From Candidatus Latescibacterota bacterium (GTDB taxonomy: Bacteria > JAAXHH01 > JABIQT01), in the NCBI GenBank assembly GCA_018667995.1, contig JABIQT010001142.1, positions 1-6,665 of the forward strand: a stretch of DNA of 6,665 nt. The letters run 5' to 3'. Every line of letters starts with the position of its first letter. The first letter of the stretch is position 1. Under the pieces are notes generated by a model. It was given only the letters and a program-made list of their open reading frames with translations. It ran no database searches and was not told the origin of the DNA. This document shows, piece after piece, positions 2,819 to 6,013 of the stretch. The position numbers were made by a program, and so were the translations under genes.

Positions 2819-3023
2819 GGACGTCCTCAGTGATAATTCGCCATATCAAATGCGGATGAATTCGCTTCACCCAATGGTCTCTTAACATCGTCTGCCAATC
2901 TGAAGGGCCTGCAAGCATACCCAAAATCCAATAATAGCCAGTCAGCAGACAAATTCTTAAAGCCGCTGTATCAATGCCGTTCGAATCTTGCGCGACCTCA
3001 GCAGCATAGCCCGACGACAACAT
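2784..3023 (-). CDS. Possible small protein with one hydrophobic segment (doubtful ORF)
   Basis: I do not recognise this 79-codon ORF. Its ATG at 3023 shares a base with the stop of the preceding Gfo/Idh gene (TGATG), an arrangement typical of translational coupling; a GTG at 3026 would add one residue. Residues about 20-39 (ALRICLLTGYYWILGMLAGP) are hydrophobic enough for one membrane helix, followed by basic residues (R48, K53, R54). It has four tryptophans. Against it: no Shine-Dalgarno sequence is evident, G or C at third codon positions is about half (lower, by eye, than in the adjacent hydrolase), and its end overlaps the first 35 bases of the CocE-like gene and covers that gene's ribosome binding site. 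If it is not coding, the 204 bp at 2819-3022 are plain intergenic sequence with no promoter or terminator that I can support. Confidence 0.25.
   Translation of the reverse strand: MLSSGYAAEVAQDSNGIDTAALRICLLTGYYWILGMLAGPSDWQTMLRDHWVKRIHPHLIWRIITEDVHENTDQSSRTI
2824..2829 (-). promoter_or_regulatory. Ribosome binding site of the CocE-like gene
   Basis: The minus strand reads TGAGGA, then the 5-nt spacer CGTCC, then the ATG at 2818. This independent site supports the start and means the hydrolase need not rely on coupling to the small upstream ORF. Confidence 0.65.
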
Positions 3024-4093
3024 CACAGCCAGTCCGCTGGATTTGCCACGGATACAGTCCGATTTTTCTGGATAGATTCCACCGCCGCTATACCTGGAAG
3101 CGTCATGTTCACAGCAAGTTCCGGACCTATGGGTGCGGGCCTGCCTTCCAGAATAGCACTAACAAAGTCATCAATGATTTGAACAGCCGGTCCCGCGTGC
3201 GATCCCATATTTTGAGCATAGTCGGGCAGAGGCGGGTATTCGTGCATCTCCTCTGCCATTTCGCGAGGCTCATCCCCCAAAGACCACGCGAATGCCTGAC
3301 TTCTTGCCTTTTTGCCTCGTCCCGATTCGAAACTCCCCTTGTCGCCGTACAGAGAAAGGTAGTGGCCACCGGGATGCGCATTGCAGAATGAATTGAGCAG
3401 CTTGAAGAGCATACCCCGTTCGGATCGGAGCACAGCCAGTTCGAGCCAGGACCGACCCGGCTCAGTTCCAGGGGCAATGTCACCTGAGACAGAGTGCGCC
3501 GTTACCTCAGTAAACCGATCGCCGGTCATATGCAGATACGGTCCCAGCCCATGGGTTGGATAGAGCAGCGGGGCAAGCGTGTGTCGCCACGTAGGTTCCC
3601 CGTCGGCTGAAAACCAGAGAGACTCGGTATGATGGATGTATTCGGCCTCACCGTAGAACAGCGTCCCTATATTACCGCTGTCGTAAAAAGATTTTGCCTT
3701 CAGTACGCTGGGTTCGTAGGGCCAGTTCTCCGCCATCATATAGGTGCGCCCGGATTCCTTGGCGGCCATTACAATCTCGCGACAGCCGTCCACAGTTACG
3801 GCAGCAGGTACCGCGGATAGCACATGCTTTCCTGCTCGCAGCGAGCGTGCTGACTGTTCCGCATGGAGCGGCGCCGGCGTAAAAAGAGCAACTACGTCTA
3901 TGGCGGGATCCGATAGCACATCGTCCAGATCGGAGCTCGTAGATGGGATAGCTGCATCAGTCGCATTCTGCTGCAGGACATCTGCGTTTATGTCGCACAG
4001 TGTCAGAACACGGCAATCGGGATGGTTCCTAAAACCATTGACCCAAGTGCGGCCAAATCGCAAGCCTACTACCGCCACGTTGAGTTGAGTCAT
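3023..4093 (-). CDS. Gfo/Idh/MocA family protein B, with a non-canonical EKP region (SAVPAA)
   Basis: A complete 356-residue protein. The N-terminal Rossmann fold (about 4-120) opens with VAVVGLRFGRTW, a variant dinucleotide loop, and the beta-2 acidic position is CDIN. At the site where most members carry EKP, with a lysine important for cofactor and catalysis, this protein has SAVPAA (93-98), so the lysine is missing. The C-terminal alpha/beta domain contains YPTHGLGP (178-185), with His181 a candidate active-site residue; as I recall, similar motifs occur in NAD-dependent GH109-type glycosidases. HPGGHYLSLYGDKGSFE (240-256) is a typical sheet segment of the fold. The ATG at 4093 overlaps the upstream stop (ATGA) and has GGAGG 4 nt before it. 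Likely cytoplasmic. It could be an NAD(P)-dependent sugar or cyclitol dehydrogenase, a cofactor-cycling lyase or hydrolase, or a non-catalytic partner of protein A. Fold assignment is firm, activity is not. Confidence 0.9.
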   Translation of the reverse strand: MTQLNVAVVGLRFGRTWVNGFRNHPDCRVLTLCDINADVLQQNATDAAIPSTSSDLDDVLSDPAIDVVALFTPAPLHAEQSARSLRAGKHVLSAVPAAVTVDGCREIVMAAKESGRTYMMAENWPYEPSVLKAKSFYDSGNIGTLFYGEAEYIHHTESLWFSADGEPTWRHTLAPLLYPTHGLGPYLHMTGDRFTEVTAHSVSGDIAPGTEPGRSWLELAVLRSERGMLFKLLNSFCNAHPGGHYLSLYGDKGSFESGRGKKARSQAFAWSLGDEPREMAEEMHEYPPLPDYAQNMGSHAGPAVQIIDDFVSAILEGRPAPIGPELAVNMTLPGIAAVESIQKNRTVSVANPADWL

Positions 4094-5160
4094 CTTACCT
4101 CCGGAGGTCCAGCGTATCCGAAACTAGCCCAGCCAGCTACGTCCCCCCCCTTTAGGCGATAAGGGTGCGGATAAACACTCAAAGATCGGTTTTTCAGGGG
4201 TAATTCTAAACGTGTGTGCCCCAGCTCGGATGAGCATCGTATAGCCAGGGCCGCCTCTAGTGCCCGATGATATCCCACGTCGCTGCCAAGTTCGTCCCGT
4301 CCCGATTCGATGGCTCGAACGAGTCTCTTTATTCGAACAGAAAAGGGATTCTCGAGCGTGTAGTCGACAGCATATCCAGCTGGTATGGGATCAAGGACGG
4401 GGCCGTCCGCTCCGAGTGTGATGGTCCCGGTGCTACCAGTCACGCCGATCATCGGGCTATCCTTCGTAGGATTTAATCGCGGCTGGGGTATATCGCAGAT
4501 GCCGCCACCAGACAGTCCCACTCGTCCATACCCGGGACAATCAACCTGGGATTTGGGTATGCCGTCAGGTGGGTCCCATCCCGGTGCTGGCGGGAGCGTG
4601 AATCCCTCTACCCATATGATTTCCTGCTGTGTAAGGAGTCGTAAAAGCGTCAGCGGAACGCAACCTGCTCCAGCCATCTCTACGGGCAGACCACGTGGAA
4701 TCAGGGCACTCTCTATTCTACCAAGATGGCCTTGCTGTACCACGGTGAGCACGTCCGACAGCCCGGGAACATCCGCGTAGACGCTGCCGCAGCTGAAGAT
4801 TGTGCCACGCTCACGGCAGGTCGCCAGCATAGTATCAGCATCCTGCAGACTGACCGCGATAGGTTTCTCACAAGAGACAAGCCGCACCCCTGCTTCCGCG
4901 CAGGCTATTACGATGGCGGGATTGCTTTCCACTGGAACAACGGCTGAGACGATATCCGGCTTCTGATCCTGTAGCAGATCTTGAATGGAATCGTACTCAT
5001 GGCTTATACCGTAACGCCTGGCGAAGGCTGCTCGCCTCTCTCCGGAACTGTCAACCAAGCCCGTTATGGTACATTCTGGGTTTTGATCGTAGGCGGCCAG
5101 ATAGTGCCGTCCCCAGGTTCCTGCCCCTCCTACCACTGCCACACGATACGATGCAGCCAC
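4090..5160 (-). CDS. Gfo/Idh/MocA family oxidoreductase A (EKP motif intact)
   Basis: A complete 356-residue protein, the same length as its downstream neighbour. The Rossmann domain (about 5-125) has VAVVGGAGTWGRHY as the dinucleotide loop, an acidic beta-2 end (GLVDSSG) and a canonical CEKPIA motif with Lys99. The C-terminal domain is compact. Where relatives usually show GxHxxDLLRxL, this one reads GAGCVPLTLLRLL (164-176), so the expected His and Asp seem absent. The C-terminus is odd, with HPYRLKGGDVAGW and PPEVR beyond the usual end, and a G8 tract encodes part of it. The start is a GTG at 5160 with AGGTG 4 nt upstream; a nearby ATG at 5177 is out of frame. It lies 70 bp after the phosphosulfolactate synthase gene and overlaps protein B by 4 bp. 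It likely oxidises or reduces a polyol, sugar or hydroxy-acid substrate with NAD(P). The substrate is unknown. Confidence 0.9.
   Translation of the reverse strand: MAASYRVAVVGGAGTWGRHYLAAYDQNPECTITGLVDSSGERRAAFARRYGISHEYDSIQDLLQDQKPDIVSAVVPVESNPAIVIACAEAGVRLVSCEKPIAVSLQDADTMLATCRERGTIFSCGSVYADVPGLSDVLTVVQQGHLGRIESALIPRGLPVEMAGAGCVPLTLLRLLTQQEIIWVEGFTLPPAPGWDPPDGIPKSQVDCPGYGRVGLSGGGICDIPQPRLNPTKDSPMIGVTGSTGTITLGADGPVLDPIPAGYAVDYTLENPFSVRIKRLVRAIESGRDELGSDVGYHRALEAALAIRCSSELGHTRLELPLKNRSLSVYPHPYRLKGGDVAGWASFGYAGPPEVR
4097..4108 (-). promoter_or_regulatory. Ribosome binding site of Gfo/Idh B inside a 12-bp perfect palindrome
   Basis: ACCTCCGGAGGT reads the same on both strands. On the minus strand its GGAGG lies 4 nt before the ATG at 4093, while its first half is complementary to the Shine-Dalgarno sequence. 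It also encodes the last residues of protein A (GPPEV). Intramolecular pairing could leave only a 4-bp stem with a CCGG loop, so any masking of the site would be weak and easily opened by ribosomes finishing gene A. Confidence 0.5.
4143..4153 (-). repeat. Homopolymer tract AAA-G8 near the 3' end of Gfo/Idh A
   Basis: Eight C on the plus strand (4143-4150) precede TTT; the minus-strand message reads AAAGGGGGGGG. In frame this is CTA AAG GGG GGG GAC, which contains the heptamer A AAG GGG of the X XXY YYZ type associated with -1 ribosomal slippage. The -1 frame meets TAG at 4124-4126 and the +1 frame meets TAG soon after the tract. A slip or a one-base indel would therefore shorten or alter the last 17 or so residues of protein A and end translation before the ATGA junction. 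Confidence 0.6.
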
Positions 5161-5230: not shown

Positions 5231-6013
5231 TCAATCCTCAGCCTTGCCGGCGTTGACGCCCAGACCCTGTCGATAGGCTTCAAACGATATCACCTCATTC
5301 GGGTCCACATTTCCGACATTGACATCTGGGCCATACCTGTCCACAAGCTGGCGGCGCATATGATGTATCAAAGCGGTGCTGACACCCTCAATCCAAGGCC
5401 CCGGCAATTCAAACATCACGCGATTCAGACCGATCTTCTCGACCACGGCCTCAACAGCCGCGGCGGTGTCTGCGTCATCGTCAATGAGCTCGGCCGCTTC
5501 GAGCAGTATAATATCCGATCCGGCGTCGAGGCAGGCAGCCGCATCATCCACCATAGAGACGCTGCTCCCTAGGCCCTCCTTCTTGCCGACCTCACCGAAT
5601 ACCTTCAGTTCGTTGCGGCGTCCTTCGCTGATCATCTTCAGTTTCCACTCGAGTGAAACCGCACCCAGATTGTCCGATACTTCGATCCAGGAATAGCCGG
5701 CATCCCTCACAGCGGGAATATAGTGATCCGCCTTACCCTCTACCTCTGCGTATTCCAGATACTGCCCACCTGGAAAGGGCTCCACGCCGTAATTCTTGTA
5801 GGTCCGTACCTTATCAACCAGTACGTCATTCGATAACAGGCGGGATATTCCCACTGCTACTTTCGCGAAATCCGCGTACTCAGCACCCGTTACCAACATA
5901 TCTAGTTGGGCATGAGGCCCCATACCCCAGTCCACAACCATGGTCTGCCCGGTTGTGCGTGGCTTGTTGGACCGTGACCGACCGTCAAGACCGTCAAAGA
6001 TGTGACCCGGCAT
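5231..6013 (-). CDS. comA: Phosphosulfolactate synthase homologue (ComA/HSA32 family)
   Basis: A complete 260-residue TIM-barrel protein. ComA joins sulfite to phosphoenolpyruvate to give (2R)-phospho-3-sulfolactate (EC 4.4.1.19), the first step of the archaeal coenzyme M route and of sulfolactate formation in some bacteria. Family landmarks are present in order: NKPRTTGQTMVVDWG (16-30), YADFAKVAVG (46-55), VEPFPGGQYLEYA (77-89), WIEVSDNLGAVSLEWK (109-124), FGEVGKKEG (139-147), LDAGSDIILLEAAEL (162-176), NRVMFELPGPW (197-207) and the C-terminal VNVGNVDPNEVISFEAYRQGL (231-251). The EVGKK lysines and PGG loop are expected active-site elements. Trp29 stands where, from memory, the methanogen enzyme has Lys (DKG), so this may belong to a distinct bacterial subgroup with a changed substrate. 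AGGGAG lies 7 nt before the ATG at 6013. No ComB or ComC is adjacent. HSA32 relatives act in heat tolerance, so another role remains possible. Confidence 0.88.
   Translation of the reverse strand: MPGHIFDGLDGRSRSNKPRTTGQTMVVDWGMGPHAQLDMLVTGAEYADFAKVAVGISRLLSNDVLVDKVRTYKNYGVEPFPGGQYLEYAEVEGKADHYIPAVRDAGYSWIEVSDNLGAVSLEWKLKMISEGRRNELKVFGEVGKKEGLGSSVSMVDDAAACLDAGSDIILLEAAELIDDDADTAAAVEAVVEKIGLNRVMFELPGPWIEGVSTALIHHMRRQLVDRYGPDVNVGNVDPNEVISFEAYRQGLGVNAGKAED

Follow-up and report, generated by a model that had tools for sequence, protein, structure and literature searches.

Two overlapping Gfo/Idh/MocA genes in a Latescibacterota operon: a GH109-type glycosidase-like protein and a member of a conserved subfamily without the His/Asp pair

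Introduction

Catalysis in the Gfo/Idh/MocA superfamily has been assigned to a triad, composed of the lysine of an EKP motif together with an aspartate and a histidine (or tyrosine) on the first helix of the second domain (PMC7535918). Family members form homo-dimers or homo-tetramers, and inter-subunit sites are known among them: in scyllo-inositol dehydrogenase, a loop histidine extends into the active site of the adjacent subunit (PMC5969746). The EKP lysine is dispensable in at least one active member, the CHMS dehydrogenase PmdC (9azo; PMC11489326), which reads VEIP at this position and uses histidine residues.

Two groups of NAD-dependent glycosidases share this fold. In the GH109 alpha-N-acetylgalactosaminidases, represented by AmGH109A (6t2b) and EmNagA (2ixa), the EKP lysine is absent by nature. 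In the mechanism proposed for AmGH109A, His404 in the GGHGG loop acts at C3, Tyr226 acts at C2 and the glycosidic bond is handled by His259 (PMC10755693; the chain numbering of 6t2b is 25 lower than the published numbering). The H225A substitution inactivates a homodimeric GH109 enzyme from Spirosoma (PMC6521355). The GH188 sulfoquinovosidases, represented by SqgA, combine a redox glycosidase mechanism and two conserved histidines with a lysine, Lys107, kept at the substrate (PMC10755693). Here, we compare two overlapping genes, encoding proteins A and B, with these systems.

Results

Layout of the gene pair

The window, by which we mean the whole contig of 6665 bases, belongs to a Candidatus Latescibacterota assembly of 6.06 Mb in 1165 contigs that is 85% complete. 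A sequence-only reading of the window had described two genes that share an ATGA overlap and code for 356 residues each, and the open reading frames 5160..4090 and 4093..3023 bear this out (Table 1). It had also described a protein A that keeps the EKP lysine, Lys99, without the His/Asp pair, and a protein B that lacks the EKP lysine (SAVPAA at 93-98) while carrying His181 in YPTHGLGP. Both descriptions hold, with A reading SCEKP and, at residues 164-176, GAGCVPLTLLRLL. The Pfam family PF01408 matches A at 83.9 bits and B at 63.0 bits (cut-off, 24), indicating that a Rossmann NAD-binding domain is present in B. A Shine-Dalgarno-like GGAGGT lies inside the end of A and precedes B, which makes translational coupling of the two genes likely.

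The same-strand gene order, from upstream, is an M19 dipeptidase gene truncated by the contig end, a ComA-like gene, A, B, a CocE/NonD hydrolase gene and a gene for a DUF5117 protein. The ComA-like protein directly upstream of A (5231-6013) belongs to the phosphosulfolactate synthase family, with 180.8 bits to PF02679. Against the archaeal ComA equivalog it scores 155.8 bits, with a cut-off of 280 bits, and it is a bacterial relative of ComA.

Table 1. Positions of the gene pair and of its active-site features in the window
Feature	Position	Strand	Description or basis
Protein A	4090..5160	(-)	356 aa, GTG start; oxidoreductase from a rare Gfo/Idh/MocA subfamily that lacks the His/Asp pair
Protein B	3023..4093	(-)	356 aa, ATG start; GH109-type NAD-dependent glycosidase-like protein
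ATGA overlap, A stop/B start	4090..4093	(-)	4 bases
Shine-Dalgarno-like GGAGGT	4097..4102	(-)	Within the A 3' end, 3 nt before the B ATG; read from sequence
A Lys99 of the EKP motif	4864..4866	(-)	Kept in all orthologues covering that region; sequence, orthologue alignment
A residues 164-174 (GAGCVPLTLLR)	4639..4671	(-)	Val168/Thr171 at the canonical His/Asp columns
A residues 334-340 (YRLKGGD)	4141..4161	(-)	C-terminal tail signature; superclade alignment
B Val95	3809..3811	(-)	At the Lys column, as in GH109; sequence, profile search, tree alignment
B Tyr152	3638..3640	(-)	Equivalent of AmGH109A Tyr226; alignment, PMC10755693
B His181	3551..3553	(-)	Equivalent of AmGH109A His259 and EmNagA His228; alignment, PMC10755693, PMC6521355
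B His299 in GSHAG	3197..3199	(-)	Equivalent of AmGH109A His404, GGHGG loop; alignment, PMC10755693

Protein B carries the catalytic residues of GH109

A profile of B relatives ranks the GH109 structures 6t2b (1e-44) and 2ixa (1e-43) first and DgpA next (3e-33), and a tree of 91 proteins nests the GH109 structures in the B clade with a local support of 0.99. Across seven active-site columns (V95, E122, Y152, W169, Y178, H181 and H299), B is identical to GH109; no such match as a set is seen for 1,5-AF reductase, TM0414 or DgpA. The predicted structure of B aligns with 2ixa over 353 of its 356 residues (Z 35.5, rmsd 3.1) and with 6t2b over 349 (Z 35.4, rmsd 3.2), although these scores are tied with those of other family members and the fold alone does not single out GH109.

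The likeness to GH109 extends to an ENx motif, to the YPTHG motif around His181 and to a histidine in a glycine-rich loop. In contrast, GH109 enzymes have about 440 residues, their identity to B is about 20%, and their GGHGG loop reads GSHAG in B and GGHAG in the orthologue of genome G099. Close relatives of B are found in G099 (69%), G013 (66%), and G098 and G100 (42% each); close and distant relatives alike share V-P/T-A at the lysine position, EN, an EAEY-like motif, W-R and Y-x-T-H.

Because GH109 enzymes lack the EKP lysine by nature, Val95 is the normal state of B's clade. Protein B looks complete on its own, with the whole GH109 catalytic set in one chain, and the proposal that the site is incomplete in each of the two proteins did not survive the alignment to GH109. 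We regard B as a putative GH109-type NAD-dependent glycosidase which, as judged by clade and residues, adds a member to a known type. Its chemistry would be independent of metal and, by homology, would begin with oxidation of the sugar at C3 by a tightly bound NAD+. Deprotonation at C2 and elimination of the glycoside would follow, after which water would add and C3 would be reduced again. Tyr152, His181 and His299 would supply the acid/base residues, and the EKP lysine would not be needed.

The other described systems are less close. SqgA resembles B in its fold, its mechanism and its two conserved histidines, but B has no counterpart of Lys107; PmdC shares the missing EKP lysine, but its HHxxH site is unlike that of B. 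As protein B illustrates, an absent EKP lysine may be a sign of a GH109-type redox glycosidase and not of a broken dehydrogenase, and the source genome alone has several such lysine-less proteins among its PF01408 matches.

Orthologues of B occur in two of 16 genomes in the set from the source genome's phylum. A search of viral contigs for B found nothing, and plasmids yielded distant relatives only, at most about 31% identical. The B orthologue of G098 has a cluster of three sulfatases next to it, and the related G100 has the same arrangement as far as its contig reaches. The B orthologue of G099 adjoins a gene for a 769-residue protein (L138, 2250-4559, minus strand) that has no sequence match in Pfam, NCBIfam or the PDB. 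By visual inspection this protein resembled a six-hairpin glycosidase, an assignment that we do not make given the lack of matches.

Protein A belongs to a subfamily whose active site appears to have been rebuilt

Protein A shares the two-domain fold, the Rossmann motif and the EKP lysine with canonical dehydrogenases such as WlbA, levoglucosan dehydrogenase and 1,5-AF reductase; its predicted structure aligns with WlbA over 305 residues (Z 29.6, rmsd 2.8). It differs from them in two respects. The aspartate and the histidine or tyrosine of the triad are absent from the first helix of its second domain, and it carries a C-terminal tail (residues about 325-356). Structural alignments of A stop at about residue 320-328, placing the tail beyond the aligned solved structures, and the model has low confidence at residues 341-350 within it.

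Orthologues of A, at 44-50% identity, were found at 11 loci, hosted by three Poribacteria, by metagenome-assembled genomes labelled Gemmatimonadetes or Latescibacterota, and by one Planctomycetota, one genome labelled Zixibacteria and one uncultured bacterium. They are rare, with an orthologue in three of the 384 genomes searched. The His/Asp pair is missing from all 12 members of the subfamily, and Lys99 is kept wherever the alignment covers it. Where A reads GCVPLT at the start of the His/Asp helix, the orthologues read GCVQLT, GCVQLS or GCVQIT. The nearest paralogue group (C900 in the source genome and L144 in G013) reads DKP and SGGGCQHI. Members of this group (L035, 2532-3632; L144, 1450-2349) have a histidine one position after the canonical column, and they have the YRxxGGD tail too.

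Across the superclade that unites A with this group, Cys167 and Arg174 are invariant, as are the tail residues Tyr334, Arg335, Gly338, Gly339 and Asp340, and the tail has no counterpart in the sister groups. Since these sisters retain a His/Asp pair of the NGTHxID type, the alignment is most simply explained by a single loss on the stem of the A superclade, the same stem on which the YRxxGGD tail would have been gained. The tail may have taken over acid/base or substrate-binding work. More specifically, and as a tentative proposal, members of the superclade would be active oxidoreductases in which Tyr334, Arg335 and Asp340 of the tail replace the Asp/His relay, acting in sugar-acid breakdown together with dehydratases of the MR/MLE superfamily.

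Alternatively, A could be a pseudoenzyme that binds NAD(P) or senses a substrate without turnover, leaving B as the sole enzyme of the pair; the yeast regulator Gal80 is comparable in idea. The loss of the His/Asp pair from the whole subfamily fits this explanation, as does the state of the source copy, the most diverged member of the group. It deviates at 26 of the 132 positions that are invariant in five other members, compared to 3-9 of 109-115 positions for the others, and it has Pro169 where its relatives have glutamine. Given this divergence and the missing Gln169, the source copy may be losing its function. However, members from different phyla all keep Lys99, the Rossmann glycine motif and many polar positions unchanged, a pattern that suggests a retained reaction, and the operon partners of A relatives elsewhere are metabolic enzymes. 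We therefore consider a pseudoenzyme unlikely and favour A as an enzyme that retains its chemistry.

Protein A thus appears to represent a conserved and apparently uncharacterised subfamily, whose novelty would lie in a rebuilt active site on a known fold. A literature search for Idh/MocA proteins in Latescibacterota or Poribacteria returned nothing. If the subfamily is functional, it must do without residues by which catalysis in the superfamily is defined, and it could test how closely the superfamily's chemistry is tied to the Lys-Asp-His triad.

Proteins A and B most likely act independently

The complementary losses had suggested an obligate heteromer to the sequence-only reading, either with a shared site formed by the lysine of A and the histidine of B or with one subunit acting as a scaffold. 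The ATGA overlap and translational coupling are consistent with such a complex, as are the family's oligomeric states and its precedent for inter-subunit sites in scyllo-inositol dehydrogenase (PMC5969746). The distribution of the two genes argues otherwise. The regions flanking the 11 A loci contain no B orthologue. Seven of the 11 A-bearing genomes have no B orthologue at all, only general GH109-like paralogues at 36% identity or less; the other four have one (42% or more), located on a different contig from A and among different neighbours. The gene pair is therefore not always co-conserved, as the heteromer had been expected to entail. The catalytic lysine and histidine also reside in one chain in all family structures considered. 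Because A commonly occurs without B, and B looks complete by itself, both the shared-site and the scaffold versions of the heteromer are unsupported, and we judge an obligate complex highly improbable.

The two proteins are distant paralogues, 21% identical over the Rossmann part only and located in distant clades of the tree, which rules out a recent duplication with subfunctionalisation. Complementation within a heteromer was likewise rejected, on the co-occurrence of A and B and the complete site in B.

We consider it probable that A and B are independent operon neighbours, B being a GH109-type glycosidase and A an NAD(P)-dependent oxidoreductase of a subfamily lacking the His/Asp pair. Most likely, they are two independently acting carbohydrate enzymes whose translational coupling here is an accident of gene order. 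Protein A would retain hydride transfer beside Lys99, with either the tail or the substrate helping in acid/base chemistry; this substrate would be a sugar or a sugar-acid intermediate. Neither active site would need parts from the partner protein. The further suggestion, of a subfamily with non-standard chemistry for each protein, is supported by homology for B; for A, it is plausible.

Genomic neighbours of A relatives suggest a possible role in sugar-acid breakdown

In five of the 11 genomes (G013, G098, G099, G100 and G103), a gene of the MR/MLE superfamily is located 12-40 bp from the A relative on the same strand; G098 and G100 are close relatives, and the linkage amounts to about four independent cases. 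Four of the five MR/MLE neighbours are most like rhamnonate or galactonate dehydratases, and, of the solved structures, muconate cycloisomerases come closer to the one in G103. Other A relatives adjoin a hydantoinase or a GNAT gene. From the adjoining dehydratases, our best guess is that A acts at a step of sugar-acid breakdown.

These neighbours also bear on whether A and B, as separate homo-oligomers, act one after the other on a single substrate; for example, B could free a sugar from a glycoside and A could oxidise that product or a sugar acid formed later. The shared operon in the source genome and the acid-sugar dehydratases beside A relatives fit such a pathway, and in G099 genes for an MR/MLE dehydratase and a DHDPS-type aldolase share a stretch with the B orthologue. 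However, linkage of A and B was seen in the source genome only, and the M19 dipeptidase, the ComA-like protein and the CocE/NonD hydrolase of the operon are not obviously sugar-related. A common pathway is possible, though we lean against it, and independent action of the two enzymes remains our preferred explanation.

Active-site losses and protein lengths in context

We next consider how unusual the two losses are within the source genome (G000), which contains 85 PF01408 matches in its 6.06 Mb. This is an extreme expansion; A-bearing relatives have up to 150 first-look candidates. Of the Gfo/Idh/MocA proteins in the source genome, 82 were aligned, and the histidine column was scored in 78. 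The lysine is absent in nine of the 82, and the canonical histidine in 12 of the 78, eight of which have tyrosine instead. Because such losses are frequent in the source genome, the complementary pair is a mild coincidence and less striking than it first appears. Each loss is common to a whole orthologue group, which marks both as genuine, ancient changes rather than errors of sequencing.

The equal lengths of A and B are coincidental too, since their orthologues differ in length: full-length A orthologues mostly have 360-367 residues, and B orthologues 355-380. Among the paralogues, one (L097, 268-1305, minus strand) has alanine at the lysine column and tryptophan at the histidine column, and another (L109, 160-1011, minus strand) has arginine at the histidine column.
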